Assembly (NCBI GenBank): GCA_934307185.1
Contig: CAKRCJ010000017.1
Coordinates: forward strand, 1-16,141
Reading direction: 5' to 3'
Length of the DNA: 16,141 nucleotides
Source of the DNA: an uncultured Roseburia sp.
GTDB lineage: Bacteria > Bacillota > Clostridia > Lachnospirales > Lachnospiraceae
The translations under genes and the position numbers were made by a program. Shown here piece by piece: positions 1 to 16,141 of this stretch; the first letter of the stretch is position 1, and each line of letters starts with the position of its first letter. The notes under the pieces are model-generated. The model had not been told where the DNA came from and did not search any database. It worked only from the letters and a program-made list of their open reading frames with translations.

Positions 1-564
1 CTGAAGAACCTTATTATAAAGTCTCTCCACAAATTTTCTGTCTAAAATTCTTCTGTAATCTTCAAGTTTTACCGTAAATGACTCTTTGTTATTCTGTGCA
101 TCTACATTCTTTTTCTCATCATTATAATAAGATGTACAGGTGATTGTGTAAGTTCCCTCTGTATATTTTTTACAGTCTGTGGTGTCCCAGCTATAGGTAA
201 TATTGTAGGTTCCCTTTTTTGCCTCGAAATCGGCATTTTTTCGTGCCACTAAATTAGCAGCATCCTCTTTGGCCCCTTTGAAAATTCTGATTTCGTAACG
301 CTCCATCTCATTTCCAAAAGTCCTCACATTAAATACCAGATTAATCTTTGTGTTATTAGAATAAGTAGCATCATACATTGTCGGATCCGGATAAATCGAT
401 GCATGTGCAGATGCCTCCACTAAATCCTCCTCTGTATCCTGCTGCTCACTTGATACATAAGATAACTCGTCTGCATCACTCTCCGCAGCCAGTGCCGTCA
501 TGGAAAGTGTCATGCTAAGACATAATACTGCTGCAAATCTTTTGAATAACTTATTTACTTTCAT
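1..564 (-). CDS. Secreted protein with beta-rich domain and the start of a DUF4214 module (3' end outside window)
   Basis: Open frame of 188 codons running off the left edge, so the C-terminus is missing. The start is ATG at 564-562, with an AGGAGGG ribosome site at 571-577 and a good promoter further upstream. Residues 1-28 form a signal peptide (MKVNKLFK, a hydrophobic stretch, then a TALAAE cleavage region). An acidic, Ser/Glu-rich segment follows (about 29-62), then a region with alternating hydrophobic residues (about 63-165, including FNVRTFGNEMERYEIRIFKG and YNITYSWDT), which looks like an Ig-like or other beta-sandwich domain that I cannot name. The last residues, KFVERLYNKVL, match the opening of the DUF4214 units in the neighbouring genes (for example FVNRLYNKLLDR), so this is probably another member of the same exoprotein set. 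Its enzymatic or binding role is unknown. Confidence 0.85.
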   Translation of the reverse strand, partial: MKVNKLFKRFAAVLCLSMTLSMTALAAESDADELSYVSSEQQDTEEDLVEASAHASIYPDPTMYDATYSNNTKINLVFNVRTFGNEMERYEIRIFKGAKEDAANLVARKNADFEAKKGTYNITYSWDTTDCKKYTEGTYTITCTSYYNDEKKNVDAQNNKESFTVKLEDYRRILDRKFVERLYNKVLQ

Positions 565-570
565 ATGTTT

Positions 571-577
571 CCCTCCT
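571..577 (-). promoter_or_regulatory. Ribosome binding site AGGAGGG
   Basis: On the minus strand AGGAGGG lies 6 nt before the ATG at 564. It fixes the start of the left-edge gene. Confidence 0.85.
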
Positions 578-594
578 GTTTGTTTTCTGCCCCT

Positions 595-624
595 ATTATA
601 GACCTCTGTCTACTCAATTTACAA
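595..624 (-). promoter_or_regulatory. Sigma-A type promoter for the left-edge gene
   Basis: The minus strand reads TTGTAA (619-624), an 18-nt spacer, then a perfect TATAAT (595-600). Transcription would start near 588, giving a short leader that carries the AGGAGGG ribosome site. The promoter lies in the gap after the C1 protease gene, so the left-edge gene can be transcribed independently of the cluster upstream. The -10 box is strong; the -35 box matches the consensus at four of six positions. Confidence 0.6.
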
Positions 625-636
625 TCAAATAATATG

Positions 637-656
637 GAAAAATTTCTTAATTTTTC
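637..656 (-). terminator. AT-rich hairpin directly after the C1 protease stop codon
   Basis: A perfect inverted repeat, GAAAAATT, a 4-nt loop, AATTTTTC, begins right after the protease stop codon. It is the right place for a terminator, but the stem has only two G-C pairs and no uninterrupted T-run follows, so it is a weak candidate. Confidence 0.25.
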
Positions 657-2690
657 TTAAGGATTTGTCTTCCTCTGTAAATATTCCTCGGAGTAATAAA
701 ATCCCTGCTCTATCTCTTCCTCTGACTGACCGTTTTTCTTTTTTTCTGCCCAGTAGCATAATCCCGGCAGGTCATATTCCCGGTCTAAAACTGTCTCGTA
801 CAAACTACATATATCGTTTACTTTTACTTCATAACAATTCTCCACACACTGCCTAAGAATACTTTTCCCAAAACTTAAAAGCTCTGCATTTTCTGCCATA
901 AATTCATCCGAATACAAAAAGCCTTCCATAATGCTTAATGTGCTAAAACCAGCTTCACTGCGGCTTACCCAGTTATTCACTCCCTGTGCTTCGCCCTGTC
1001 TTTGCAGCAGGCTTTCATATAACAATTCAACGCCACGCTCCGTTTCACTGCCCCGGACACATGTTAAGAACTGCCCATAAGCATCTAAAATATCCTGTTC
1101 TGTGAGCGTTACTTTATAATCCTGCTGTAAAAGAGTTCCCTTTTTTATAAAAAGTTTTATCCTGAAATTTCTGTCCTGCTCTTTTCCAAAATCAACCCAG
1201 TCCTCCCCTGTTTTTAAAAGACTGGTGTTTTCTCCGCCTGTTGCCTTGCACCGTGTGCGTCTGCCGGAGGCTGTCGTGTCCGTATAAATGCCGGTCCGTT
1301 CCCCTGTAAATGTTATGACAACAGAAATCACTGTTCCTTTTGGCTGCTGCTCTATCTCCGGAAGTTCTACCGTGTACTGTCCGGCATTATTTATATATCC
1401 TTCCACCGGTTCTTCTAATAAAGTCTGTCCGGACTCCGGGTTTTCTTTCTGTGAATTTTTATATAAAGAAACCTGATATGCCATATTCCCATACGGCACT
1501 GCAAAGGTTACCGCCGATGGTATCTCACAATACTCATCTGTTCCTTCTAATATATAGTTGTTTGCAGCCACTAACTCATTTTCCTGTGTTACTGCTTCAT
1601 CCATTAAAGTATTATCACACTGATAGATATTATTATATACGCCTGTCTGTTCTGCTTCCATTGCATATGCTTTCCCCGAAATCGAGGCATCTTCATAAGA
1701 AAGCCAGAAATACCCATTGTCGCCAAACACGGTCCCCCATGTATTTTTCACAAGCCAGGCACCGTTTTGTTTTGGCATGGTTTTAAAATTCTCTTTTGCA
1801 TAACAATCATCCCAGCCAACGATTACTACCGCATGGTCACTTTTTATCCTGCCCGGGCAATACTGTGCAGCTGTATCATAGTTATAATAGGCAAGTCCAC
1901 TGTAATAAGAAATACCAACTGCTCCGTAAGATAAAACCGCTTCTTTTATTTCATTCTGGTTTGCAGTATTTAATAGATATGCATTTTTTAACCGCACTCT
2001 TGCATTTTGATAGACAAATTCACTGTTTTCCGGCAGACTCTCATTTAAGTAATCATAAGGCGCACTGCTTTCATCGGCTGCACCAGCATAGCTTCCGAGT
2101 GTCCGCATTGCATACTCATAGGTTCCTCCATTTTGAAAGCATATAGAAGCAGCCCCATTATCCTGATAAGTCGTTCCCTCACCTTCCTGTTGTCCCGGTG
2201 TTCCTTTCAGTGAATGAAAAGAATAGTATACCAGATGCCGTTCGGACAAATCGCAGTCTTTTACAAAGCCTTTTTTTATACTGTTGATTTGCAAAAGCTC
2301 TAATGCCGAAAATGCCCAGCAGTCCCCATATTTCTGTGTCTTTACCGAAGTGACAAGTCCCTCTTTTCTGCCATCATAAGCAGCCGGCAGATTTACTTTT
2401 AAAATGGCAGTCTCCGGCAAATTCTCTGTGCTGTCTGCAAAAGTGTCATCTGCATCATCAATAAAAGAACCTTTTCCCGCAAATTCATCTACAGCATTTG
2501 TTACCTCTTCCTTTTCAGACTCCGAAAGCGGTCTTCCCTTAATATAATCGAACGTGCCGGTATTCTCCTCTGTTTCAGCTTCTGTACTTATTTCCACAAC
2601 ATTTTCTTCTGCGAAAGCTTTCTGTCCGGGCATCCAAAATAAAATACAGAAAAAAAATGTCATCCAGAAGGTTACTCTTTTTCTTTTCAT
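657..2690 (-). CDS. Secreted papain-like (C1A) cysteine protease with lectin-like domain and C-terminal DUF4214 units
   Basis: 677 residues. Residues 1-27 are a signal peptide ending in KAFAEE, followed by a short acidic pro-region. The C1 peptidase domain spans about 100-340 with the full catalytic set visible: oxyanion Gln119, Cys124 in GDCWAFSA, His286 in SDHAVVIVGW and Asn316 in VKNTWG. Residues about 350-515 are beta-rich and resemble the lectin-like domain found after bacterial C1 peptidases (inference). The tail (about 553-672) holds two divergent DUF4214 units, marked by LYESLLQRQ and LYETVLDREYDLPGL. It should cleave proteins or peptides outside the cell or at the surface; the substrate is unknown. 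The ATG lies 2 nt after the TAG of the glucosaminidase gene and the ribosome site (GGAG) is inside that gene's end, so translation is likely coupled. No LPXTG motif is present. Confidence 0.92.
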   Translation of the reverse strand: MKRKRVTFWMTFFFCILFWMPGQKAFAEENVVEISTEAETEENTGTFDYIKGRPLSESEKEEVTNAVDEFAGKGSFIDDADDTFADSTENLPETAILKVNLPAAYDGRKEGLVTSVKTQKYGDCWAFSALELLQINSIKKGFVKDCDLSERHLVYYSFHSLKGTPGQQEGEGTTYQDNGAASICFQNGGTYEYAMRTLGSYAGAADESSAPYDYLNESLPENSEFVYQNARVRLKNAYLLNTANQNEIKEAVLSYGAVGISYYSGLAYYNYDTAAQYCPGRIKSDHAVVIVGWDDCYAKENFKTMPKQNGAWLVKNTWGTVFGDNGYFWLSYEDASISGKAYAMEAEQTGVYNNIYQCDNTLMDEAVTQENELVAANNYILEGTDEYCEIPSAVTFAVPYGNMAYQVSLYKNSQKENPESGQTLLEEPVEGYINNAGQYTVELPEIEQQPKGTVISVVITFTGERTGIYTDTTASGRRTRCKATGGENTSLLKTGEDWVDFGKEQDRNFRIKLFIKKGTLLQQDYKVTLTEQDILDAYGQFLTCVRGSETERGVELLYESLLQRQGEAQGVNNWVSRSEAGFSTLSIMEGFLYSDEFMAENAELLSFGKSILRQCVENCYEVKVNDICSLYETVLDREYDLPGLCYWAEKKKNGQSEEEIEQGFYYSEEYLQRKTNP

Positions 2691-2692
2691 CT

Positions 2693-4891
2693 CTATTCCA
2701 CTCCATATGACTGCATCAGATTATGAAATTCTGTACTGCGCGCAAAGCCACGGAATACCTGCTCTCTGTCTGTTCCTGCCTCTAGCTGTGATACCCAGTC
2801 ATTTAATCCTGCCTCGTCATATTCCCTGTCTAAAAAAGTACGGTACATAATTTTCACAAAATCAACATTTGAAGTATTCCTGTTTGAAAATTCCTGTGAA
2901 AAAACAAAACCATATGCCACATTTTCTGTTGTATCAGACTTTGTCAAAATGGTTTTACACCAGTTCTCAATTCCTGCATCCTCGCCCTGTCTGTCTAATA
3001 ATTTATTATATAAACGGTTCACAAAAGCTGTCACACCTTCATTCTGGTCACGATAGCTGCCTAGCGTAACCGTTCCCTGAACCACTCCATACTGACTGCA
3101 CACATTGGAAAACTCATCGGAATCGGAAAATCCCCGGTACACATACTCACGGCTCATTCCGTTTTGTAATACACTAAGCCAGTTCTCTTTTCCTCCCTGG
3201 TCTGCTTCTCTGTCAAACATAACTTTATAGAGGACATCCACATAGGCCTCATCTGAAAGATTTTTATTTTTAAATTCATCACTGAAGAAAAATCCCTGTG
3301 CTGTCTCTGCTCCTGTTTTCTCTCCATTTTTCAATGCTGTATACCAGTAATTGATTTCCGACTCATCATAAGAATTTCTCTGCAATGCATCCTCATACAG
3401 TCTAATGACGAAAGCTCTCAGCTTTTGTTCTGCTGTTGTAGAACTATCGGAGTTGTCTGAGCTGTTTGAACTGTTTGAATTATTGGAGTTATTTCCATTA
3501 TTTGAACCATTTCCACTGCTGGAACTATTTCCATTGCCCGAATTATCAGAACTGCTTCCTGTGTCCGGGGAGGCACACGCCGTTTCTGGCATATTATTGT
3601 AAACCGGTATCTTAAATACGAACGGATTTTCCAGCGCATTCGTTTTACTGTATGCACTCTTTATCTGGCTTCCCTCTGACATCGGTGCAACAATATTCTG
3701 CTGATACTGATGTGAATACAGCCCATTATACGAGGCATCCACATCAAACTTCTGCAGATACAGGGTATCCTGTCCCTTTAAAATATAATTTTGTGAAATA
3801 TACCCAGCACCGCCGGACAACGATTTCACCCTGCTGTCCCAGCCATATTTTTTAGCCGCAGTAAGACCATTCACGTATACATCTGTAGTTGTGTTTCCTG
3901 TTGCTCCAATGTTATAATAATTGTAATATCCTTCATAACCAGCATAATTGCCGGAAATAAGCGGTGATGTTCCTTCACTTCCCTGCTCCTGATAAACCCT
4001 GCATGCTAAAAAGAACGGACTGACCCCTATCTCATTTCCTATATTATAAAATTCCTGCGCATAACTGATGCCCTCTCCCGGAATGTCTCCCTGCATAAAT
4101 GTTCCTGAAATTATGTTGGAAACGGCATCCACCGTGTGATACTGCGCATTATATGTCTGCTGTTCAAACATAAAAATGTATGAGTCATTGATAAAATTAC
4201 GTGGGTCCAGGCAATATTCTACTGCTGTCTGCGATGCCACATACCAGCCTGGCTGTGATGATGCCCCTGCTTTCCAGGCATCGCTTTTATTTTTATACAC
4301 CCAGCTTCTGTCATTTTTCATCTCCGCAGACACCACACTATTCCAGTCCAAATTCGTCTGCATTGATACGAAGGTCCAGTCTGGATGCGACGATTTCAAC
4401 GTATAAAGTGCACTCCGGTAAGACTCAGGAAAAGAAAGAATATCTTCATTTCCACCCCGGACAACATCTTCTGCTATTTCATCATTTATATCGGAAAGTT
4501 TCTCCTCCCACTGTCTGAAATCCACATCACTTGTAATAAGATTTTGTGCTTCTATATATCCGCTCATTTCACGGTCATCTACCGCAAAAGCCACCTGATA
4601 CCAGACCTCATCTTCTAAAATAGAAACATCCTTAATGAATACCTGGCTTCCTGACGCAAGCGTTGCCACTGTCTCATCGGTAAGAGCCGGTTTTCCTTTT
4701 ACTTCATAATAATCTGTATGATAAACAGTTGCCATCACTGTTTTTTTCTGCAATATGTCCTGTAATTCCTGTTCTGCTGTATCATTAACCTGTTCATTTT
4801 CCATTGCCATACATTGCATGCTGCCACTCGCAAAAATGATTGCTGCAGCCAACATTGCTGCCAATAATTTAGGCATCCGTTGCTTTTTCAT
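2693..4891 (-). CDS. Secreted GH73-like endo-beta-N-acetylglucosaminidase with SH3 domain and four DUF4214 units
   Basis: 732 residues from the chosen start at 4891. A longer frame opens at 4951, but those 20 extra residues would be encoded by a terminator hairpin, while the 4891 ATG has GGAGG 4 nt upstream and is followed by a proper signal peptide (MKKQRMPKLL, hydrophobic core, MQCMAME). Residues about 51-119 look like a bacterial SH3 domain (VWYQVAF, SGYIEAQNL). Residues about 150-420 match the glucosaminidase family of Lachnospiraceae autolysins, with FFLACRVYQEQGSEG; Glu302 in this motif is the probable catalytic acid. A Ser/Asn/Gly-only linker (about 443-486) leads to four DUF4214 units (491-732) in two A-B pairs, ending at SYGVE. 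The likely role is cutting peptidoglycan glycan strands. It is followed after 2 nt by the C1 protease gene. Confidence 0.88.
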   Translation of the reverse strand: MKKQRMPKLLAAMLAAAIIFASGSMQCMAMENEQVNDTAEQELQDILQKKTVMATVYHTDYYEVKGKPALTDETVATLASGSQVFIKDVSILEDEVWYQVAFAVDDREMSGYIEAQNLITSDVDFRQWEEKLSDINDEIAEDVVRGGNEDILSFPESYRSALYTLKSSHPDWTFVSMQTNLDWNSVVSAEMKNDRSWVYKNKSDAWKAGASSQPGWYVASQTAVEYCLDPRNFINDSYIFMFEQQTYNAQYHTVDAVSNIISGTFMQGDIPGEGISYAQEFYNIGNEIGVSPFFLACRVYQEQGSEGTSPLISGNYAGYEGYYNYYNIGATGNTTTDVYVNGLTAAKKYGWDSRVKSLSGGAGYISQNYILKGQDTLYLQKFDVDASYNGLYSHQYQQNIVAPMSEGSQIKSAYSKTNALENPFVFKIPVYNNMPETACASPDTGSSSDNSGNGNSSSSGNGSNNGNNSNNSNSSNSSDNSDSSTTAEQKLRAFVIRLYEDALQRNSYDESEINYWYTALKNGEKTGAETAQGFFFSDEFKNKNLSDEAYVDVLYKVMFDREADQGGKENWLSVLQNGMSREYVYRGFSDSDEFSNVCSQYGVVQGTVTLGSYRDQNEGVTAFVNRLYNKLLDRQGEDAGIENWCKTILTKSDTTENVAYGFVFSQEFSNRNTSNVDFVKIMYRTFLDREYDEAGLNDWVSQLEAGTDREQVFRGFARSTEFHNLMQSYGVE
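3434..3565 (-). repeat. Low-complexity Ser/Asn/Gly linker coding repeat
   Basis: This 132-nt stretch of AGT/TCA/AAT/AAC/GGA codons encodes a 44-residue flexible linker between the glucosaminidase and DUF4214 domains. It consists of short imperfect repeats of TCA-AAC-AGT and GGA-AAT-type units, a likely site of length variation by slippage. In other frames it produces artificial Leu/Glu/Phe-rich or Thr/Val/Gln-rich frames. Confidence 0.8.
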
Positions 4892-4895
4892 TTTT

Positions 4896-4900
4896 CCTCC
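4896..4900 (-). promoter_or_regulatory. Ribosome binding site GGAGG abutting a terminator T-run
   Basis: GGAGG on the minus strand, 4 nt before the ATG at 4891. It directly follows the TTTTTT (4901-4906) of the terminator upstream. It decides the start of the glucosaminidase gene against the longer frame opening at 4951. Confidence 0.8.
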
Positions 4901-4949
4901 AAAAAAGCCTCCCCAAACTTCAGACATCCCGTCTGCAATTTGGGAAGGC
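4901..4949 (-). terminator. Strong intrinsic terminator after the LRR gene, possibly an attenuator of the glucosaminidase gene
   Basis: On the minus strand a 19-position stem starts GCCTTCCCAAA and closes TTTGGGGAGGC around a 5-nt GGGAT loop, with two G-T pairs and one mismatch, followed by TTTTTT. It lies 17 nt after the stop of the LRR gene and would end that transcript. The T-run touches the ribosome site of the next gene, leaving no room for a promoter between them. The downstream gene must therefore be read by partial read-through or from a promoter upstream of the hairpin. Confidence 0.85.
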
Positions 4950-4966
4950 AATTCTTTATAAATTAA

Positions 4967-7654
4967 TTATTCTCTTGTAATACCATATTTTTTGCATAAA
5001 TTATCAAATTCAGTACTTCCGACAAATCCGTTGAATACGTCTTCCCTGCTGTATCCTTCATTATGCATGCGATTTAACCAGTCGTTCTTTCCACCTTCAT
5101 CAGAAGAACGGTCGAAAAATGCACGATATAAGTATTCTACATAATCTTCATCATTTAATCCCTTGTTGGTAAATTCCTGAGAGAAAATGAATCCTTCAGA
5201 TACTGTTCTTCCACTTCTTGAATGTTGCCACAAGCTATTGGTCCAGTCATTTAATCCATCTGTATCCGGTTCACGGTCTAAACAAATATTATACAGTCTT
5301 GTTACAAATGCTGTCACTCCATCTGTTTTTCCACAAACAGAACATGGTCCGTGAGGAACTGTTCCATACTGTGGTATAGCGATACCATCACCTAATGTAA
5401 TGCCATATTCTGCACAGATATTCGTAAACTCAGCACTCTTAGCAAATCCGTTAAATACTTCTTCGCGGGTTGTACCTGTCTCTAATCTGTTAACCCAGTC
5501 ATTCAATCCACCCTGGTCATATTCACGTCCCATAAAAGCACGATATAACTGTTTCACATAATCTTCATTACAGTAATTATAGTTCTGGAACTCTGTGCTG
5601 AAAATAAATCCATACGCTGCGCTTGAACCTGTCTCAGTTCCATTTGACAGACGATTTACCCAGTCAGCTTTTCCTGCTGCATCCGGTGTACGATTTAAAC
5701 ATACGCTGTATAAACGGTTTACAAAATTTCCAATCTGTGAGTCCTCAGATTCTACTTCAACTGCATTCGTATTTACCCACATCGCCGGACGCACACCACC
5801 AATTACATTGGCAGCAGCCATTCCGTCACTGCTTAAGGAGCCTGTGTAATGTACATACATTGCATCATAGTCAAATATACCAGGTGTACGCAGCCACCAG
5901 TAAGACGACTGTGTCACATTATTTCTTAACGCAGAATCTCCATTCCGGCTCAATGCATATTCTGTACAGTTCGCCATTCTTGCTCCATCTGTCTCAAAAT
6001 ATTTTTCTGCTTCTGATGCACTTAACAAAAATACTTTGTCATCTGTTGAAGATCCTCCGGAAGTTCCATATGTGGAATTATTCTCTGCAGATACATTTGT
6101 CGTGTTAATAGCTGATTTCTGGCTGTCTGTAAATGCCGTATTATAGAATGTATTATTCAGCCAGTTTCTGATGGAGCTGTTGCTCCAGGTTATCTGTGTC
6201 TGTAAATTTGGATAATACTGTTGGAAATCAAGTACATTTTTGCTGATTATGAGTGCTTTATCTCCCTGTAAATCAAGTACTGTCCACTCAATCTGCTCTG
6301 CACCATTTGAGCTGTTGTTATCCTGCTCATAAGAGCCAAATTTTACAGTTCCGCCAACATGTATTACGCTTGTATCCACAACCTGTCTATTTGCGCTTCC
6401 TGTTCCACTGCATTCAATGTTTGAACCTGTCAGGGAACCATTATTATTGCCAATAGAAAGTGCATTCCACTGTTCTTTAGAACCGCCATAATGAACAGTA
6501 TGCAATCCGGAGCAGCTATTGAATGCATTATCTCCAATGAAAGTTACTCCGCTTCCAATTGTTACTTCAGCAATACATCCACATCCTTCAAATGCATGTC
6601 CTTCAATTACTCCCTGGTTAATCTCTGCATGTGAAATCGGAACCCACGTAAAGGCACTGCTTCCAATATATGATACACTGGAAGGAATATTAATATCTTT
6701 AAGCTGTGAACAGCTGTCAAATGCACTTGCACCAATAGATTCTACTCCTGAGGAAGGTAATACTACTTTTTTCAGATTATTACATAAATAAAATGCATAA
6801 TTTCCAATCTTCTTCACACTAGAAGGCACTACAACAGTATTAATGCTCTGACCATATTCAAATACATAATCACCAATTTCAGTAACACCTTCCGGAATAA
6901 TAATATCTTTTAATTCTACTCCACCGAGATATAAATGTTTTGCAAACTGCAGTGGGTTGGCAAGATAACCGCCAAACTTCATTCCACACCATGCTGCAAT
7001 ATCACTGATATAAACTCCTTTTAAATTCGTACAGTCCTCAAATGCACTGATTCCACAGCCTGTCGCTTTTCTTCCAAATGTAACTTTTTCTAATGCACTA
7101 CAGCGGATAAATGCAGATTCTCCTACAAATCCTCCGTTAATTACAACTTCTTTTAATCCTGTACATTCACCAAAAGCTGCATAACCGATTGTAGAAATTG
7201 TCGATGGTGTTGTTACTGAGGTCAGAGATTTGCATCCCCAGAATGCGCATGCACCGATAGATGTAACCCCTTCCGCAATCTTTACACTTTTAATGCTGTC
7301 TTTGTATGCATACCACGGCATACACTGTGAAGATGCAGGTGTATCATAAACCGGATAATCATACATTGCTCCATTTCCGGTAATCGTAAGTGTTCCATTC
7401 TGATAGGACCAGTTTACATTCTGTCCACACTTGCCAGAAGCTCTTGAAGCAAGCAAAAGTTCACTCTCTTCAAAATATTCAAATGCTTCACCATCATCCT
7501 CTAAGGCTTGTACCGTTACATCCTCTGCATCTTCCGTTCCTTCCGCTTCACTTACAACAGCACCTGTGTCTTCTGCAAATACAGTAATTCCTGAAACTGC
7601 AGTTGTTAAGCTAAGTGTCATTGCAAGAAAAGATACAACAACTTTTCTTTTCAT
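4967..7654 (-). CDS. Secreted BspA-like leucine-rich-repeat protein with DUF6273 domain and four DUF4214 units
   Basis: 895 residues. The signal peptide (MKRKVVVSFL, hydrophobic core, TVFAED) is followed by an acidic pro-segment to about residue 73. Residues about 75-415 are BspA/LRR_5-type leucine-rich repeats with the recurrent pattern I-P-x-G-V-x-x-I-G-x-x-A-F-x-x-C. Residues about 434-630 match DUF6273 (KFGSYEQ at the start, YWWLRTPG and GGVRPAMWVN at the end), a domain often found in such surface proteins. Residues 641-895 are four DUF4214 units in two A-B pairs separated by a linker with a CSVC motif; the protein ends at KYGITRE. BspA-like proteins usually bind host or bacterial surface molecules, so an adhesin or ligand-binding role is inferred. 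The start has AGGAGG at 7664-7669 with a 9-nt spacer, 17 nt after the AraC gene stop, so the gene is probably co-transcribed with it. Confidence 0.92.
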   Translation of the reverse strand: MKRKVVVSFLAMTLSLTTAVSGITVFAEDTGAVVSEAEGTEDAEDVTVQALEDDGEAFEYFEESELLLASRASGKCGQNVNWSYQNGTLTITGNGAMYDYPVYDTPASSQCMPWYAYKDSIKSVKIAEGVTSIGACAFWGCKSLTSVTTPSTISTIGYAAFGECTGLKEVVINGGFVGESAFIRCSALEKVTFGRKATGCGISAFEDCTNLKGVYISDIAAWCGMKFGGYLANPLQFAKHLYLGGVELKDIIIPEGVTEIGDYVFEYGQSINTVVVPSSVKKIGNYAFYLCNNLKKVVLPSSGVESIGASAFDSCSQLKDINIPSSVSYIGSSAFTWVPISHAEINQGVIEGHAFEGCGCIAEVTIGSGVTFIGDNAFNSCSGLHTVHYGGSKEQWNALSIGNNNGSLTGSNIECSGTGSANRQVVDTSVIHVGGTVKFGSYEQDNNSSNGAEQIEWTVLDLQGDKALIISKNVLDFQQYYPNLQTQITWSNSSIRNWLNNTFYNTAFTDSQKSAINTTNVSAENNSTYGTSGGSSTDDKVFLLSASEAEKYFETDGARMANCTEYALSRNGDSALRNNVTQSSYWWLRTPGIFDYDAMYVHYTGSLSSDGMAAANVIGGVRPAMWVNTNAVEVESEDSQIGNFVNRLYSVCLNRTPDAAGKADWVNRLSNGTETGSSAAYGFIFSTEFQNYNYCNEDYVKQLYRAFMGREYDQGGLNDWVNRLETGTTREEVFNGFAKSAEFTNICAEYGITLGDGIAIPQYGTVPHGPCSVCGKTDGVTAFVTRLYNICLDREPDTDGLNDWTNSLWQHSRSGRTVSEGFIFSQEFTNKGLNDEDYVEYLYRAFFDRSSDEGGKNDWLNRMHNEGYSREDVFNGFVGSTEFDNLCKKYGITRE

Positions 7655-7670
7655 ACTCTTTTTCCTCCTG

Positions 7671-8516
7671 TTAATCTTTAATCCATTGTGCCCATCTTCT
7701 TCGATATTCTTCCGGTGTCATAGATTCATTTTCTCTGAATAACTGATAAAATAAATCTTCATTCATAATTCCGGAGTCCTGTATTACCTCATTCATTGGC
7801 TGTATGGTAAACCGAAGAAGCTCTTTTGCCGCATTAAAACGGCGGTTTAAAATATAATCTCTGATTCCAATTCCATAATTTGCCATAAAGGTATGGTTCA
7901 TTTCTTCCTGATTCATGTGAAATTTTTCACAGAGTATACTTAACAATGATTGTTCTTTATAATTTGTATTCACAAACTCACGGATATCTTCCATCTTGTC
8001 CTTATCATTCATCTTCGCAATACAGTCAACAATTAATTTTGTAAGTTCTGCATGCATCTGAAGTTCAGAACAATTTTTCTTTAACATATCAAGCAGATTT
8101 CTAATACCGGATGCTACATTCACATGCTCTGCCGGAACAAATACCGGTAAACCATTCTGTTCTGTAAAAAGTTCATAAAATTCTTTTGCGCAGCATCCGT
8201 TAAAATGAATCCATGCAAGCTGCCATGGCCTGTCCTCACTGCTGATGTGCTCAAAAGCATGCCTGCAGTCGATCCACGCACAGTCTCCCTTCTGTAATTC
8301 AAAAGTATTTCCCTGCGTTGTGATACTTCCTTTTCCTTTTTCCACTTCCAGTAACAAGTAAGAATCAAGATTTTCTCTCCTGCAGACATGTGGAGTAAGG
8401 CTCTGCAAAACACCCGCTTCCTGTACATACAGCAGATTCTTTTTTGCAAAAGTTCCCGGTGTATGCAGCATTCGGTCAGATTTGGTAACCCCCTCTGATG
8501 CAAACATATTTTCCAT
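7671..8516 (-). CDS. AraC-family transcriptional regulator
   Basis: 281 residues, a usual length for the family. Residues about 30-130 form a cupin-like ligand-binding half with beta-strand character (SYLLLEVEKGKGSI, FELQKGDCAWIDCRHAFEHI, AWIHFNG), typical of AraC regulators that sense sugars or other small molecules. Residues about 175-278 form the double helix-turn-helix DNA-binding half, ending in the family hallmark LFYQLFRENESMTPEEYRRRW. The first helix-turn-helix is somewhat divergent from the consensus. The ribosome site AGGAGG overlaps the TAG stop of the upstream reductase gene, so the two are translationally linked. As the only regulator in the window, and being followed by an exoprotein gene in the same operon, it is a candidate controller of the cluster; its ligand and operator are unknown. 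Confidence 0.93.
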   Translation of the reverse strand: MENMFASEGVTKSDRMLHTPGTFAKKNLLYVQEAGVLQSLTPHVCRRENLDSYLLLEVEKGKGSITTQGNTFELQKGDCAWIDCRHAFEHISSEDRPWQLAWIHFNGCCAKEFYELFTEQNGLPVFVPAEHVNVASGIRNLLDMLKKNCSELQMHAELTKLIVDCIAKMNDKDKMEDIREFVNTNYKEQSLLSILCEKFHMNQEEMNHTFMANYGIGIRDYILNRRFNAAKELLRFTIQPMNEVIQDSGIMNEDLFYQLFRENESMTPEEYRRRWAQWIKD

Positions 8517-8528
8517 TCTTCTTTCCTC

Positions 8529-9467
8529 CTAAACTCTTGCTCTCCAATAATCTAATGTTTCTTTAATTGTCTGTTCCAACGGTATTTCCGGTTTCCAGCC
8601 TGTAATGGCATTTATCTTCGTGATGTCCGCTTCGATAATCGGCACATCAACCGGACGGATTTTATTCGGGTCTATCTCCACCTGAATATCAACAGTTGAT
8701 AATGAAATAATCAGATTTAATATTTCTTCAATCGCATATGCATGTCCGCTTCCTACATTATATGTCTCTCCGCACTGACCCTTTTGTATCAGCATGGCAT
8801 ACGCTCTGACCACATCCCTTACATCTGTAAAATCTCTTTTTGCTGCAAGATTGCCAACATACATGACCGGCTCTTTTTTTCCGGCTTCAATCTCTGCCAC
8901 CTGTTTGCAGAAATCAGAAACAACAAAAATCGGTGACTGAGTTGGACCTATATGATTAAATGCACGGACCATCATAAGCTCCATATCATATGCCTGTGCA
9001 TAAATACCCGCAATCATATTCTGGCATACTTTTGTTGCCGCATAAATATTTCCCGGACGGACATGGTTATCTTCTTTAATCGGTGTCTCACCTTCCCTGA
9101 TATGTCCGTATTCTTCACCAGAACCTATCAAAAGAACTCTCGGCTTATAAAACAACTCCCTGATTGCATCAAGTAAATTAACACACCCCTTGACATTAAT
9201 GTCAACCGTAAGTCCCGGATTTTTCCATGCAACACTAACGGAGCTCTGCGCTGCCAGATGAAAAATATAGTCCGGACGAACTTCATATAAAAGTGTTACT
9301 ATATCCTCTTTATTCAAAATATTTAATTCATGAACGTATGCTCCCGGAATATCTAATTCATTCGCAAGCTTTGTAGCATGCACTTCCATGTCATGATGCT
9401 CCATCAGTTCTTTTGCAAGATAACCTCCCACAAAACCAGCCGCTCCAATAATCAACGCTTTCTTCAT
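8529..9467 (-). CDS. NAD(P)-dependent sugar-nucleotide reductase/epimerase, GDP-4-dehydro-6-deoxy-mannose reductase-like
   Basis: 312 residues. Extended short-chain dehydrogenase: the Rossmann motif GAAGFVG at 8-14, the IFHLAAQSSV strand, the active-site serine region LIGSGEEYG (114-121) and the catalytic pair Tyr142/Lys146 in IYAATK. The combination of GSGEEYG, FNHIGPTQ and the late RPVDVPIIEAD motif is closest to Rmd, which reduces GDP-4-dehydro-6-deoxy-D-mannose to GDP-D-rhamnose. The substrate assignment is inferred; other GDP- or dTDP-sugar 4-reductases or epimerases are possible. No partner GDP-mannose dehydratase is in the window. It is the first gene after the promoter at 9530-9558, behind an unusual leader hairpin. 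The ATG at 9467 has only a weak GGA 8 nt upstream, so translation may be regulated. Gene order suggests it supplies a sugar for surface polysaccharide or glycoprotein. Confidence 0.88.
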   Translation of the reverse strand: MKKALIIGAAGFVGGYLAKELMEHHDMEVHATKLANELDIPGAYVHELNILNKEDIVTLLYEVRPDYIFHLAAQSSVSVAWKNPGLTVDINVKGCVNLLDAIRELFYKPRVLLIGSGEEYGHIREGETPIKEDNHVRPGNIYAATKVCQNMIAGIYAQAYDMELMMVRAFNHIGPTQSPIFVVSDFCKQVAEIEAGKKEPVMYVGNLAAKRDFTDVRDVVRAYAMLIQKGQCGETYNVGSGHAYAIEEILNLIISLSTVDIQVEIDPNKIRPVDVPIIEADITKINAITGWKPEIPLEQTIKETLDYWRARV

Positions 9468-9482
9468 TCTTTTCGTCCATAA

Positions 9483-9507
9483 AAGGGAATTCCACCGGAA
9501 TTCCCTT
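9483..9507 (-). promoter_or_regulatory. Perfect hairpin in the leader of the reductase gene
   Basis: Minus strand AAGGGAATTCC, a GGT loop, then GGAATTCCCTT: an 11-bp perfect stem followed by TTATGG, so four T in a row (two of them in the stem). It lies after the promoter at 9530-9558 and before the ATG at 9467. An AAGGAG sequence (9508-9513) sits immediately upstream of the stem. It may be a weak terminator for the preceding transglutaminase gene, an attenuator, or a hairpin that controls ribosome access. Confidence 0.6.
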
Positions 9508-9529
9508 CTCCTTTTTCTTGATATGCTTT

Positions 9530-9558
9530 ATCATACTACACTTACTCTTTTTTTTCAA
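9530..9558 (-). promoter_or_regulatory. Sigma-A type promoter of the reductase-AraC-LRR operon
   Basis: The minus strand reads TTGAAA (9553-9558), exactly 17 nt, then TATGAT (9530-9535). Five of six bases match the -10 consensus and four of six the -35, with optimal spacing and an A-rich spacer. Transcription would begin near 9523, leaving a leader of about 55 nt that contains the hairpin at 9483-9507. A small inverted repeat (AATGAA, 5 nt, TTCATT at 9574-9590) lies just upstream and could be a regulator site, but it is short and partly overlaps the previous stop codon. Confidence 0.65.
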
Positions 9559-9589
9559 CAAGTGTCGCCGTAGAATGAATGGATTTCAT

Positions 9590-11707
9590 TTACAGTCCAT
9601 AACTTGCCACAAGATTTGCAAATTCCTGGGAATTGGCAAATCCCCAGAACACATCCTCTCTTGAAGTTCCGGCATTTAATCTGCCGGTCCAGTCCGAAAG
9701 TCCGGCTTCATCTGCTTCTCTGTCAAAAATTCCACGGTATAAAATCTTTACAAATTCTTCATTTGAAAGGTTCATATTCTCACATTCTGTTGAAAATACA
9801 AAACCATGTGCCACCTGGTCTAATCCATAGCCTCCGTTAATTCTGCCGGTCCAGTCATTCAAACCGTCAACATCGTAATCTCTTCCCAAAAACTGTTTGT
9901 AATTTCTTACGACAAATCTAGTAACATTATAATTTTGGTCTCTTGCCTCATCTAACGTCACATCACCCTTATCAATCTGATAAGCATTGCACAGATTAGA
10001 AAATTCATCCGAATTAATGAACTGTCTGAACACATACTTTCTGGAAACTCCATTCTGCAAATGTGTCACCCAGTCGTTCTTTCCGTCTGTATCAGAGGCA
10101 CGTCCCATAAGACTTAAATATAAATGCTCCACATAATCGCCGTCGCTATAATTTTTGTTGGTAAACTCCTGGCTGAAAATGAAACCATATGCAACATCCG
10201 CTCCAGTGCTTCCACTTTCCAGACGGCCTACCCAGTAATCAAGTTCGCTTCGTGCTGCATAGCGGTCCAATACATTTTCATATAATAATGCAACAAAACG
10301 GTCTTTTCCCGTCACTCTTGCGCTTGAGGTTTCACATACGACTTCTACACTTTCCTGTGCCACATCACTGTCCCAGTAAGTATCCCGTACTGCTACCGCC
10401 TTCACATCACAGCTTTTGTCAACTGTAAACACACCACTATAGCAAATCGAGCGTGTCGCAGCAGGAGTTGGGGTACTGCCATCTAATGTATAATAAATAA
10501 TTGCATCTGATGTATCTGTTTTGATAGAAACCTGTGCATCTGCTCCATCCTGTGTAACCGTGATAACCGGAGTGTTAGTGTTTCCTGCTACGTTTGGAAG
10601 CTTTCCCGGATTCGTAAATGTAGCACCGGAATCTAGGGTACAGCTTGGAAGATAGCCATTCCAAAAACCTGACTCTCTATGGGATGATGCATAGTATGAA
10701 TCAGAATCATAGACCTTATCACTCCGCTCAAAATAAAAATAATTAATACTGGACGACTGGTCTGCCCAGGTACAATCCACATTATACCAGGAATCATTAA
10801 TACGTACTTTATTCCATTCATGATCGCTGCTTGTCACGGCAGCACAGTCAATTCCGACTGCATTGCACATTACCTCAAAAGCCTGTGCATAGCCGGCACA
10901 CACTGTTTTATCCATGCAGAATACACTGTACGCACTCTGTGTAAAAGCTGTATTCTCGTTAAAGTTAGAACTATATATATCGTTATTATATTCCACTTTA
11001 TTCACGATAAGGTCATGCAGTGCCTTTACTTTTTCTGCGTCGGTTGTATATTTTTCCACTGCAGACTTCCAGCTGTCAATCTGGCTTTTTACCTGTTTTG
11101 TCGCATTCTGTCTTGCAGAACCGTCAGCAAATGCCGGATAAACTCCCAGCGAAATAAAATAATTATTTCCGCTATATCCATATCCTAACTTATTGCTTAA
11201 GAAGTAATATTGAGGATTTGAAAACTTAAAAATATATGCAACATTTTTTGCTTCACTTTCACTCAACCCGGTATAATATACATATGGAAGTATATTATTA
11301 TCAATGTTTGTCGTATTTAACAAAGCATTCAGGCAGGATGCATCCAGTGCATCCCATAATTCACGCTCCTCCTCTGACATCTGGTTATAAAAATAATTTG
11401 TAGAATAACTATCCCATTCCGATGCATAGGCAGATGAACCAAGAAGGTTCTCCAAATCATCACTGTATGCCTCTGCCGGAGTATAAATATCCTCTTCATC
11501 AACTTCCCCGATATTTATTTCCTGCATTTGCAGTAAGCCAGTCGGATGAGCTGCTTCTTCTGATGCCTCTGTGCTTTCTGTCTCAACCTCTGCACTTTCT
11601 GCCTGCTCTGCCGTCTGCATCTGTCCGGATGCATTTTGTGCATAGACATTTAAATTTCCAATAAGCATACACGCTGCGAGTACTATGACTGCTATTTTCT
11701 TCTTCAT
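9590..11707 (-). CDS. Secreted transglutaminase-like protein with chitobiase-C-type domain and four DUF4214 units
   Basis: 705 residues from the ATG at 11707, chosen over a frame opening at 11755 because GAGGAG lies 6 nt upstream and the protein then starts with a classic signal peptide (MKKKIAVIVLAACMLIG, NVYAQ). An acidic Glu/Thr/Ser-rich region follows. Residues about 225-340 form a transglutaminase/papain-like core: Cys270 in KTVCAGYA, His296 in SDHEWN and Asp311 in NVDCTWAD. Residues about 377-457 resemble the chitobiase/beta-hexosaminidase C-terminal domain (IIYYTLDGSTPTP), usually a beta-sandwich spacer or carbohydrate-contact module. Residues 471-705 are two A-B pairs of DUF4214 ending at VASYGL. 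It may crosslink or cleave proteins at the cell surface; which one cannot be told from sequence. The repeat half closely matches that of the lysozyme gene just upstream. Confidence 0.92.
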   Translation of the reverse strand: MKKKIAVIVLAACMLIGNLNVYAQNASGQMQTAEQAESAEVETESTEASEEAAHPTGLLQMQEINIGEVDEEDIYTPAEAYSDDLENLLGSSAYASEWDSYSTNYFYNQMSEEERELWDALDASCLNALLNTTNIDNNILPYVYYTGLSESEAKNVAYIFKFSNPQYYFLSNKLGYGYSGNNYFISLGVYPAFADGSARQNATKQVKSQIDSWKSAVEKYTTDAEKVKALHDLIVNKVEYNNDIYSSNFNENTAFTQSAYSVFCMDKTVCAGYAQAFEVMCNAVGIDCAAVTSSDHEWNKVRINDSWYNVDCTWADQSSSINYFYFERSDKVYDSDSYYASSHRESGFWNGYLPSCTLDSGATFTNPGKLPNVAGNTNTPVITVTQDGADAQVSIKTDTSDAIIYYTLDGSTPTPAATRSICYSGVFTVDKSCDVKAVAVRDTYWDSDVAQESVEVVCETSSARVTGKDRFVALLYENVLDRYAARSELDYWVGRLESGSTGADVAYGFIFSQEFTNKNYSDGDYVEHLYLSLMGRASDTDGKNDWVTHLQNGVSRKYVFRQFINSDEFSNLCNAYQIDKGDVTLDEARDQNYNVTRFVVRNYKQFLGRDYDVDGLNDWTGRINGGYGLDQVAHGFVFSTECENMNLSNEEFVKILYRGIFDREADEAGLSDWTGRLNAGTSREDVFWGFANSQEFANLVASYGL
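9593..10297 (-). repeat. DUF4214 array of the transglutaminase gene (paralogous copy 1)
   Basis: Encodes four DUF4214 units in A-B-A-B order. It is paralogous to 11791-12504: shared stretches include DYVEHLYLSLMGR, DVDGLNDW, DVFWGFANSQEF and NLVASYGL, with similarity also visible in the DNA. The unit core is R-x-x-D-x-x-G-x-x-x-W, then a G-x-S/T-R turn, then G-F-x-x-S-x-E-F. Confidence 0.85.
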
Positions 11708-11713
11708 TCCAGA

Positions 11714-11720
11714 CTCCTCT
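11714..11720 (-). promoter_or_regulatory. Ribosome binding site AGAGGAG
   Basis: The minus strand reads AGAGGAG followed by 6 nt and the ATG at 11707. It decides the start of the transglutaminase-like gene. Confidence 0.75.
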
Positions 11721-11738
11721 CTTGTACTATATGCACAG

Positions 11739-11767
11739 ATAGGGCTGTCCGTCACCGGAAGCCCTAT
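11739..11767 (-). promoter_or_regulatory. Intergenic hairpin between the lysozyme and transglutaminase genes
   Basis: Minus strand ATAGGGCT-TCCG, a GTGA loop, CGGA-C-AGCCCTAT: a 12-bp stem with one bulged C and a GNRA-type loop. No T-run follows it on the minus strand (CTGTGCATA), so it is not a classic terminator. It could be an RNA processing or stability element or a partial terminator between two operon genes. Confidence 0.55.
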
Positions 11768-11787
11768 ATTTTCTGTCCTAACTTTTT

Positions 11788-13434
11788 TTATAATCCGTAG
11801 CTTGCAACAAGATTTGTAAATTCCTGGGAGTTAGCAAATCCCCAGAACACATCATCCTTTGATGTACCTGCATTTAATCTTGCAGTCCAGTCTGAAAGAC
11901 CTGCATCATCTGCCTCCCTGTCAAAAAATCCACGGTAAAGCATTTTAACAAAATCTTCATTGGAAAGATTCATGTTTTTGCACTCATCGGAAAATACAAA
12001 ACCATAAGCTACCTGTTCCAATGTATATTCTTTTCTGTTAATCTTTCCGCACCAGTCATTTAATCCATCCACATCATAGGAACGGCCTAAAAATTCCCTG
12101 TAGTTTCTTACCATAAATCTTGTAACATTATAGTTAATATCGCGTGCTTCATTTAATGTAATGGTTCCCTGTTTAATTCCATAATTATTGCACAATCCAC
12201 AAAACTCATCAGAATCAACAAACTGTTTGAAAATATACTCTCTTGAAACACCATTTGCCAGATATGTAATCCAGTTCTCTTTACCTGCTTCATCAGAAGA
12301 ACGGCCCATCAGACTTAAGTATAAATGCTCTACATAATCTGCATCATCATAGTTATGGTTTTTAAATTCATCACTGAAAATAAAACCATGCGCCGTTTCT
12401 GCACCGGTTCTTCCGTTTTTCAGTTCGCTCACCCAGTAATCAACTTCGCTCTGCTCCGCTGTACGGTCTAATACATACTGATATAATCCACGGATAAAGC
12501 CGGCTGCTTTCTCTTCATCAACTGTAACCTTTTCTGTCTGCTGTGTATTTCCATCATACCAGAAGTTCATGTCTACACGTCCTGCAATTCCGTTTACAGA
12601 GCCATTGCTTGAATACTGCCAGAAAGTATAAGCTCCAGCATAATCGGTACAGTTTGTATAATTTGCAAGCCAGATTTTATACTTGGAACCAAGTGTATTT
12701 GCATCCACCTGGTCATTAAGCATATTCTTGTTTGCATAAATCATCGGTGTATATCCTGCCCCCGCTACTCTGTCACAAAATGCGCTGCACACCGCTGTCG
12801 CTGCTTCCCTGCTTAATCCTGCCTGATATAATCTTCCCTTATTTGCCGCCTGGCTTACATACTCAAAATCCATAGCAACCGGAAGTGTTATATTATATCC
12901 GGAAATTTTTCCAAGAATAAAGTTTGCCTCTTCTACTGCCTCATCGGTACTAATTGCCTGTGAAAAAATATAAACGCCAACTTTTAATCCCGCATTCAAT
13001 GCGCCTGTGATATTCTTTGTAAAATTAGGATCATCCTTTAATGCTCCATTTGAATATCCTCTGTATCCAACACGGATAATTGCATACTCAATTCCGGAAC
13101 TTCTTACTGCATTCCAGTCGATGTCCTTCTGGTAATAAGATACATCAATCACATCTTTAACTTCCATGCCATTAAATCTGGAATTATGTGTATATCCACT
13201 GTCGCGTGAGCTTCTTAAAAGTGCACCTTCTTCTGCTTCATCATAAAAGTCATCATCCGCTTCACCTTCTGCACGAAATGCCTCCGGGTCATCCTCTAAC
13301 GCTTCACTGCCAGTTTCCTCTTCTGCTTCCACTGTAACTTGTGATGTTTCTTCTGCCTGTACCGGCATGCTGCCACACAATGTGGCAAATGTAAGTGCTG
13401 CCGTTAATACCGACATTAATAATTTCTTTCTCAT
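11788..13434 (-). CDS. Secreted GH25 lysozyme with four DUF4214 units
   Basis: 548 residues. Signal peptide 1-27 (MRKKLLMSVLTAALTF to PVQAEE), then a very acidic pro-segment (about 28-72) ending in ALLRSSR. Residues about 93-295 are a GH25 muramidase: Asp97 in VIDVSYYQ and the catalytic pair Asp189/Glu191 in AMDFEY, with FWQYSSNG and VDMNFWYDG closing the barrel. The enzyme should cut the MurNAc-GlcNAc bond of peptidoglycan. Residues 311-548 are four DUF4214 units in two A-B pairs, taking the place where other GH25 enzymes carry SH3 or choline-binding repeats. The start has AGAGG 6 nt upstream, and the gene begins 26 nt after the mutase stop, so the two probably share a transcript. No LPXTG motif or membrane anchor is present. 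Confidence 0.94.
   Translation of the reverse strand: MRKKLLMSVLTAALTFATLCGSMPVQAEETSQVTVEAEEETGSEALEDDPEAFRAEGEADDDFYDEAEEGALLRSSRDSGYTHNSRFNGMEVKDVIDVSYYQKDIDWNAVRSSGIEYAIIRVGYRGYSNGALKDDPNFTKNITGALNAGLKVGVYIFSQAISTDEAVEEANFILGKISGYNITLPVAMDFEYVSQAANKGRLYQAGLSREAATAVCSAFCDRVAGAGYTPMIYANKNMLNDQVDANTLGSKYKIWLANYTNCTDYAGAYTFWQYSSNGSVNGIAGRVDMNFWYDGNTQQTEKVTVDEEKAAGFIRGLYQYVLDRTAEQSEVDYWVSELKNGRTGAETAHGFIFSDEFKNHNYDDADYVEHLYLSLMGRSSDEAGKENWITYLANGVSREYIFKQFVDSDEFCGLCNNYGIKQGTITLNEARDINYNVTRFMVRNYREFLGRSYDVDGLNDWCGKINRKEYTLEQVAYGFVFSDECKNMNLSNEDFVKMLYRGFFDREADDAGLSDWTARLNAGTSKDDVFWGFANSQEFTNLVASYGL
11791..12504 (-). repeat. DUF4214 array of the lysozyme gene (paralogous copy 2)
   Basis: Four units in A-B-A-B order, paralogous to 9593-10297. 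By eye roughly three quarters of residues are shared with the other copy, much more than with the arrays of the LRR or glucosaminidase genes. This points to a fairly recent duplication or a gene-conversion event between neighbours. Confidence 0.85.
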
Positions 13435-15251: not shown

Positions 15252-15306
15252 AAACACAAAATCCGCTATACTAAAGTCCGTTCTTTAGTATAGCGGATTT
15301 TTGATT
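15252..15306 (-). terminator. Intrinsic terminator after the helicase remnant (works on either strand)
   Basis: Perfect 18-bp stem: AAATCCGCTATACTAAAG on one arm (15258-15275), a short loop, and the matching arm at 15283-15300. On the minus strand it is followed by TGTGTTTT and on the plus strand by TTTTT-rich sequence. It should end transcription of the helicase-like gene and insulate the mutase operon. Confidence 0.85.
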
Positions 15307-15357: not shown

Positions 15358-16141
15358 TTATGCCGTTAATTTTTTCAGTGTTTCAGTAATTTTCTCTTTT
15401 TCACTGCTGCCATTTGTTTTAAATCTCAATAACGGAATTCCATATAACTCCATTATATGATTTTTTAACAAATCCCTCGATGCCTGCACCGTGTTTATTG
15501 CATGAAAATTATATCCATCAACCTCTATCGCTAAGACTGGTTTTTTTGTTATTCTGTTATAAATTAAAAAATCCAGATGCGTTGCCGGATTCATCGCATA
15601 TTTGTATTCTTCTTCCTTTAAAAATCTGGTATTTTTTATCAAAAGCTTCAACGGAAAATGACAGATAACATCTAAATCAGAATATACATTATCAGAAATA
15701 ATTTTCTCAATTAACGCATACATCAAATTTTCCGAATCAAATTCCGAAATTCTTTTATGACTCTTCAAAAAATTCTTTCTCTCCTCTGTATATTGCTTAT
15801 AAAGATAATCAAAAACTGAGTATGTATTGCTGTCTGTCACTTCGAAATTATTATACTGAATATATTGTATCAAATCAGTTATATTCCTGTCTTCTTTCGG
15901 TTCATTTCCCGTCACTGATTTCCCTAATGTTGCAGCAATAAAACCCAAATTATATTTTGAAGAGGACAATTTTTCATATACATTTTCTGTGGCAGAATTA
16001 TTATTAGAAACTATTTGAACTGTTTTTCCCTGCATTAATATATTGGCAATTATATTTAATATTGTCTGTGTCTTTCCGGTTCCGGTCGGTCCTTGAATGA
16101 TACTAATTTGATTTTCCATTGCATTTTTTACAGCCTTATAC
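15358..16141 (-). CDS. SF1 helicase/nuclease remnant: Walker A joined to a C-terminal DUF2726-like nuclease (5' end outside window)
   Basis: The frame stays open to the right edge (YKAVKNA precedes the first Met at 16119), so the true start is outside the window. Counting from that Met, residues 7-18 carry the Walker A motif IQGPTGTGKTQ and residues 33-50 the motif Ia region VSNNNSATENVYEKL of a large UvrD/DNA2-type helicase. The C-terminal half (about 121-250) resembles the nuclease domain found at the end of such proteins: Asp183 in HLDFLIYN, Glu199 and Asp201 in IEVDGYNFH. Helicase motifs II (DExx), III, IV, V and VI, normally several hundred residues between them, are absent. The frame is uninterrupted, so this looks like an in-frame internal deletion. 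It is unlikely to work as a helicase; residual nuclease activity is possible. Confidence 0.75.
   Translation of the reverse strand, partial: YKAVKNAMENQISIIQGPTGTGKTQTILNIIANILMQGKTVQIVSNNNSATENVYEKLSSSKYNLGFIAATLGKSVTGNEPKEDRNITDLIQYIQYNNFEVTDSNTYSVFDYLYKQYTEERKNFLKSHKRISEFDSENLMYALIEKIISDNVYSDLDVICHFPLKLLIKNTRFLKEEEYKYAMNPATHLDFLIYNRITKKPVLAIEVDGYNFHAINTVQASRDLLKNHIMELYGIPLLRFKTNGSSEKEKITETLKKLTA

Follow-up and report, generated by a model that had tools for sequence, protein, structure and literature searches.

A run of secreted DUF4214 proteins in an uncultured Roseburia and a candidate surface-polysaccharide role for their shared tail

The gene run and its secreted proteins

The first 16,141 nucleotides of contig CAKRCJ010000017.1 from an uncultured Roseburia sp. 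(assembly GCA_934307185.1; this whole stretch is called the window below) carry a minus-strand run of genes, six of which encode secreted proteins that end, or begin to end where the window cuts them, in units of the domain of unknown function DUF4214 (Pfam PF13946, curated cut-off 23.2 bits). From its start the run comprises a phosphosugar mutase, the GH25 and the transglutaminase-like DUF4214 proteins, a probable GDP-6-deoxy-D-mannose reductase (RMD), an AraC-type regulator, the leucine-rich repeat (LRR)/DUF6273, SH3/glucosaminidase-like and C1 protease DUF4214 proteins and the edge-cut sixth protein (Table 1), with intergenic gaps of 26, 32, 122, 12, 16, 15, 2 and 92 bases between the open frames as listed. 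A preliminary description of the window had spoken of six neighbouring DUF4214 genes; the run is real, but the GDP-sugar reductase and AraC genes lie within it and the mutase gene precedes it. That five complete proteins carry C-terminal DUF4214 units was borne out, as PF13946 exceeds its cut-off in all five with 58.7 to 192.4 bits (C1 protease 58.7, from two units; SH3/glucosaminidase-like 173.3; GH25 176.0; LRR_5 and DUF6273 187.1; transglutaminase-like 192.4). The same applies to the sixth, described as ending where a unit begins: its relative in genome G001 (L044:1130-2371, 413 residues, 63% identical over 188 residues) has four units. Signal-peptide-like starts can be recognised by eye in all six proteins, two of which need a later start codon than listed.

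The different N-terminal activities proposed for these proteins hold for GH25, Transglut_core, LRR_5, DUF6273 and Peptidase_C1, all above their Pfam cut-offs, whereas SH3_3 (15.5 of 27 bits) and the SagB match on which the glucosaminidase assignment is based (43.8 of 425) stay below. Other anchors had been described as absent, and indeed a Pfam scan of the window proteins at E 0.1 lists neither SLH nor choline-binding domains, the three LPXTG-like matches are internal with no C-terminal sorting signal among these proteins, and mean hydropathy does not exceed 1.24 in any 19-residue stretch beyond residue 60, which gives no C-terminal membrane helix. However, the signal peptide of the transglutaminase-like protein contains a lipobox-like LAAC, because of which a lipid anchor is possible and the protein may be a lipoprotein. 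The proposal that DUF4214 takes the place of a wall-binding module in the lysozyme did not generalise, since the GH25 sequence extends to, or almost to, the protein end in no fewer than five of the seven further GH25 relatives inspected (by eye).

The DUF4214 tail forms a compact helical module. Four units is its commonest size, and it is found mostly at the extreme C-terminus of many different secreted proteins. In the predicted structure each pair of units adopts the phycobilisome-linker fold, so that four units form two such domains. Matches to the linker family itself (PBS_linker, PF00427) stay below the cut-off in the window, with 14.6 of 28.7 bits for the transglutaminase-like protein and none listed for the others at E 0.1, while some DUF4214 proteins are precomputed PF00427 matches. 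Alignment A1 of the arrays leaves aside two arrays truncated at locus edges, the cytosolic protein with two units, the unit pair of the C1 protease and the incomplete sixth protein. The GH25 and transglutaminase-like arrays of the window are 70% identical to each other and 57 and 60% identical to their own G001 counterparts, whereas the LRR array is closest to its G001 counterpart (74%). The idea that arrays track the genome rather than the partner protein thus gave a mixed result: the first two arrays fit it and the LRR array does not.

Table 1. Genes and DUF4214 arrays of the run
Position	Strand	Feature	Basis
1..564	-	Sixth secreted protein, 188 residues, cut by the window edge; first DUF4214 unit starts in its last residues (about 1-33)	Open frame, G001 relative
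657..2690	-	Secreted C1 (papain-type) peptidase with lectin-like domain and two divergent C-terminal DUF4214 units (about 678-1034)	PF00112 1.2e-19, PF18560 5.4e-15, PF13946 6.2e-16
2693..4951	-	Secreted SH3-like and glucosaminidase-like protein, four DUF4214 units; likely start codon 4891	PF13946 9.9e-52, SH3_3 0.02, SagB-like 1.7e-11
2696..3430	-	Four-unit array, glucosaminidase-like protein	Alignment A1
4967..7654	-	Secreted BspA-type LRR protein with DUF6273, four DUF4214 units	Pfam; 57% identical to G001 protein over 952 aligned positions
4970..5746	-	Four-unit array, LRR protein	Alignment A1
7671..8516	-	AraC-family regulator with AraC_binding (cupin-type) sensor domain	PF12833, PF02311; similar gene adjoins the RMD gene in G001 (L043:1269-2114, by eye)
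8529..9467	-	Probable GDP-6-deoxy-D-mannose reductase (RMD; makes GDP-D-rhamnose)	SDR; solved relatives 2pk3, 6x3b
9590..11755	-	Secreted transglutaminase-like protein with Fn3_assoc, four DUF4214 units; likely start codon 11707	Open frame, Pfam
9593..10312	-	Four-unit array, transglutaminase-like protein	Alignment A1
11788..13434	-	Secreted GH25 muramidase, four DUF4214 units	PF01183 1.8e-37, PF13946 1.5e-52
11791..12519	-	Four-unit array, GH25 protein; modelled pLDDT 97, two phycobilisome-linker-fold domains	Alignment A1, predicted structure
13461..15179	-	Phosphoglucomutase/phosphomannomutase, first gene of the run, 26 bp ahead of the GH25 gene	PF02878/79/80, PF00408

Clustering and the tie to polysaccharide genes

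All genome counts were taken from relatives and do not include the window's own genome. DUF4214 is rare: the G001 family has it in 5 of 60 genomes, the G002 genus group in 3 of 41 and the class in 6 of 391 (with one match below the cut-off). Six genomes are rich in the domain (G001, G002, G060, G334, G363, G431) and another six have just one to three matches (G022, G163, G086, G106, G023, G031). Clustering was computed for three of the rich genomes, with short-frame DUF4214 fragments omitted (two in G002, one in G060). Close DUF4214 neighbours number 6 among 11 genes in G001 and 8 among 12 in G002, values that none of 20,000 random placements reaches, although these two genomes are not a random draw because they were picked by their match to the window's GH25 protein. 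G060 has 3 close neighbours among the 36 genes counted (80 of 153 candidates scored), which 9,111 of 20,000 placements reach. The picture for the co-displayed set envisaged earlier is therefore mixed: the genes cluster beyond chance in G001 and G002 but not in G060, whose unclustered genes indicate that adjacency is unnecessary for the use of the domain. A role of DUF4214 as sortase replacement was rejected, as five of the six rich genomes have sortase genes, and so was SLH as a group separator, its matches in 8 of 60 genomes not splitting the groups. In G163, the lone DUF4214 protein is fused to an L,D-transpeptidase (YkuD; L070:7322-8353), with no other DUF4214 match listed in that genome.

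The short-chain reductase within the run is probably a GDP-D-rhamnose synthase, judging by its solved relatives. The best of these is 2pk3, a GDP-6-deoxy-D-lyxo-4-hexulose reductase (279.9 bits, 3.3e-82), followed by the GDP-6-deoxy-D-mannose reductase 6x3b (167.9 bits, 4.3e-48) and a GDP-heptose dehydratase (163.0 bits); none of the 19 NCBIfam models listed for it, which do not include an RMD model, reaches its cut-off. G001 has a gene 82% identical to it that likewise adjoins an AraC-type gene and DUF4214 genes. In a 60-genome set chosen by the analyst, whose 48 members without DUF4214 were drawn from the G001-family and G002-genus-group surveys and from which G189 was omitted for its match below the cut-off, RMD matches at E 1e-30 occur in 8 of 12 genomes with DUF4214 against 9 of 48 without (one-sided Fisher p=0.002, uncorrected for kinship), three of the eight being only 31-35% identical and possibly other enzymes. 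At 57% identity or more within the G001 family, the numbers are 4 of 5 against 3 of 26 (p=0.005). Wzt_C and gmd were rejected as discriminating partners, being present in 45 and 37 of the 60 genomes.

DUF4214 genes also occur in or beside polysaccharide clusters. One in G002 (L053) contains a two-unit DUF4214 protein without evident signal peptide together with a secreted LRR-DUF4214 protein, and in G060 a DUF4214 protein stands at a cluster edge (L073). In G363 and G431 the regions examined contain no DUF4214 protein in a polysaccharide cluster, and no such cluster surrounds the DUF4214 loci read in G022, G163, G086 and G106, two of these loci giving no unit with a custom hidden Markov model (HMM).

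When the GH25 array was searched against 72,556 plasmids, 44 records were matched, mostly from Alphaproteobacteria, and 20 of the 44 were read. The three examined first all turned out to be polysaccharide plasmids or regions, and two carry genes for dTDP-rhamnose. A neighbourhood with two or more genes of polysaccharide or sugar-nucleotide type no further than 8 kb away, defined before the test, was found in 9 of 17 further records (13 genera, Alphaproteobacteria and others), a count that excludes the three exploratory plasmids and, like the others, was read off PLSDB tables, which PLSDB calls incomplete. Intervals around DUF4214 show this neighbourhood in 7 of 10 cases against 2 of 10 control intervals half a plasmid away, one of which was shifted to stay inside its record (p=0.035; paired 6 to 1, p=0.06); the comparison covers 10 of the 11 tested plasmids of at least 120 kb and omits Shinella, which has no polysaccharide genes by its DUF4214. 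Two plasmids, from Sulfitobacter (L081) and Roseovarius (L080), carry multiple four-unit DUF4214 genes along with ABC exporter and dTDP-rhamnose genes, a full rfb set in the former and a listed rfbC in the latter.

As for the context of the run, its genes could form a single transcript. A promoter-like site lies inside the 122-base gap preceding the RMD gene; such sites are about equally common in the window and in shuffles of it (52 versus a mean of 47.8). An Rfam scan of the window gave nothing that reaches the gathering threshold. Immediately ahead of the mutase gene on the minus strand, a strong terminator-like palindrome of 19 pairs (15258-15301) may bound the run, and an 11-pair palindrome (9483-9507) between an RBS-like sequence and the RMD ATG might serve translational control. 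At 15358-16140, an AAA/helicase N-terminal piece is fused directly to DUF2726 and shows weak likeness to large antiphage proteins, being short for its kind and cut by the edge.

Methyltransferases and a possible remote relative

The sole DUF4214 match of G023 and of G031 is an apparently cytosolic methyltransferase whose gene adjoins Wzt, in clusters with Wzm-like, gmd, RMD and glycosyltransferase genes. Its unit scores 28.3 bits in G031, above the Pfam cut-off, and in G023 20.9 in the protein scan (below) and 24.1 in the genome search (above). Among 68 listed members of this methyltransferase family, the unit is found in 55 by a custom HMM and in 31 by precomputed Pfam matches, whereas none of three distant members named O-antigen chain-terminating methyltransferase by their source carries it. 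A methyltransferase with a DUF4214 unit is also encoded on a Rhizobium rhizoryzae plasmid (L085:11943-13454), its gene clustering with those for glycosyltransferases, phosphomannomutase and GDP-mannose pyrophosphorylase.

Profile comparisons suggest that RsaA_NTD (PF19198) may be a remote relative of DUF4214. The two show a local profile match, in register across two units, for which hhalign gives P 0.003 but a probability of only 10%, with none of 200 column shuffles reaching the score. An HMM of plasmid-derived DUF4214 pairs finds 34 of 120 RsaA sequences at 8 bits or more against 0 of 2,400 decoys, and a pooled-pair HMM 13 of 120 against 0 of 2,400. In contrast, the Firmicute pair HMM finds 0 of 120 at 8 bits, its best decoy (7.7) exceeding its best RsaA score (5.6). 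Firmicute-only profile comparisons are weak (P 0.12 for arrays, 0.047 for pairs, 0.017 for units), the pair and unit scores being reached by none of 100 column shuffles. Some DUF4214 proteins bear the domain at their N-terminus, so their N-terminal parts are unusable as a negative control. No PF19198 match was found among the window proteins at E 0.1, nor any match of the RsaA homologue P0117 among the plasmids.

Interpretation and comparison with known systems

Surface targeting, as the preliminary description proposed, is partly supported: a mostly C-terminal module that has varied secreted partners and is repeatedly linked to polysaccharide genes fits such a role, and polysaccharide is a better-supported candidate ligand than peptidoglycan. 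We favour, at a probability of roughly 0.55, the reading that the DUF4214 tail is a non-covalent anchor that holds secreted enzymes and the LRR protein on a surface polysaccharide made by the cell itself. The signal peptide would export the proteins, after which the tail would bind polysaccharide on the cell's own surface and retain wall hydrolases, protease and LRR protein there. Because the probable synthase gene sits within the run, a 6-deoxy sugar derived from GDP-mannose, such as D-rhamnose, is a probable constituent of the ligand polymer here. On the apparently cytosolic methyltransferases beside exporters, the unit would read the same glycan class before export. Several observations weigh against this proposal: RMD matches at E 1e-30 are absent from G334, G163, G086 and G106, all of which have DUF4214; and G334, a DUF4214-rich, sortase-free genome of 1.5 Mb that appears to be akin to segmented filamentous bacteria, has neither the RMD nor the gmd genes proposed for the window's organism, so that its ligand must differ.

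A further point on the same side is that the linker fold is known for protein binding, which keeps serious an alternative we consider unlikely, namely that DUF4214 is a protein-protein scaffold, its tails docking on a surface protein lattice and the methyltransferase unit recruiting polymerase subunits. The clear fold match to phycobilisome linkers and the precomputed PF00427 matches fit it, as does the reported recruitment of the polymerase at the membrane end of the WbdD coiled coil (PMC11231755), a place close to that of the unit in the L067 protein (by eye). Against it speak the sugar-nucleotide and export genes that recur beside DUF4214 genes, and RsaA_NTD, the sole solved possible relative with an extracellular role, which binds a glycan. 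Direct binding of peptidoglycan in the manner of LysM or SH3b, which would aim wall hydrolases at their substrate, would account for the GH25, glucosaminidase-like and L,D-transpeptidase partners and for a weak pseudomurein-binding-repeat match in the GH25 tail (E 0.011, below the cut-off); it is quite improbable given that the wall is not the target of many partners' activities (LRR, C1 protease, CAP) and that the unit also occurs on apparently cytosolic methyltransferases.

Those methyltransferases, lying in polysaccharide clusters, cannot serve binding outside the cell, and together with the probable RMD gene in the same run they make it just as improbable that the proteins are released and bind dietary or host glycans or mucus, which the secreted enzymes and LRR protein with no covalent anchor seen would otherwise allow. 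Finally, the run could be a paralogous expansion without functional unity and the sugar gene an accidental neighbour, as the unclustered genes of G060 and the 70% identity of the GH25 and transglutaminase-like arrays, as after recent duplication, might suggest. The clustering in G001 and G002 beyond all 20,000 random placements and the G001 RMD gene with its matching neighbours render this explanation the least probable of all. A broader idea, tentative and itself rather doubtful, is that DUF4214, RsaA_NTD and the phycobilisome linker belong to a single superfamily, whose DUF4214/RsaA branch would be a generic surface-polysaccharide reader in Gram-positives and Gram-negatives, within the cell on assembly-line methyltransferases and beyond the membrane as a mooring tail; its probability is lowered by the named chain terminators without the unit.

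If the polysaccharide-anchor reading is true, a domain-of-unknown-function family with members in Clostridia, Proteobacteria and an actinomycete would gain a function, and the display of surface proteins would be linked to polysaccharide export. How surface proteins are retained in segmented filamentous bacteria and in certain Clostridia of gut and rumen becomes directly testable with a candidate anchor for which a fold, a working model (RsaA) and a candidate ligand class can be named. Among earlier papers, one of 2025, which cites older genome papers, already sees in DUF4214 a likely surface anchor of segmented filamentous bacteria (PMC12780176), a Halomonas study mentions that another species' DUF4214 surface proteins are thought to form an S-layer-anchored enzyme (PMC11970703), and a third lists DUF4214 peptides from human gut fluid (PMC6034559). 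No paper linking DUF4214 to RsaA, phycobilisome linkers or chain terminators, and no mention of PF13946 or of RsaA together with the phycobilisome, was found in a search outside which most subscription journals lie. New here are the probable RMD gene in the run and its retention beside DUF4214 genes in a relative, the DUF4214 units of apparently cytosolic methyltransferases, the plasmid tie to polysaccharide genes and the possible remote kinship with RsaA_NTD.

Among known systems, the surface proteins of segmented filamentous bacteria carry the same Pfam domain, the passage that calls it an anchor naming no ligand (PMC12780176). The DUF4214 methyltransferases resemble WbdD-type chain terminators in combining a methyltransferase with a coiled-coil-like stretch and in adjoining Wzt. 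WbdD is reported to join a methyltransferase and a kinase to a coiled coil and to set the length of O-antigen chains (PMC3482155, PMC11231755), the membrane end of the coiled coil recruiting the polymerase (PMC11231755). The DUF4214 methyltransferases differ from it in their reversed domain order, by eye DUF4214, hydrophobic stretch, coiled-coil-like stretch and methyltransferase in G031, and no kinase was found in the two that were scanned. SLH, CWB2 and choline-binding modules are likewise non-covalent anchors common to many different secreted proteins, but differ from DUF4214 in fold, and the window proteins have no sequence match to them. The phycobilisome linker shares the fold of DUF4214 pairs but is an intracellular light-harvesting scaffold that binds phycobiliproteins. 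The working model for the anchor is RsaA_NTD, the S-layer anchor of Caulobacter crescentus, which is all-helical, non-covalent and keeps a secreted protein on the cell, as is proposed here for DUF4214; its Ca2+-dependent binding to a surface polysaccharide has been solved, the ligand being an O-antigen of N-acetylperosamine and mannose, sugars that derive from GDP-mannose, as would the D-rhamnose-type ligand suggested for the Roseburia tails.
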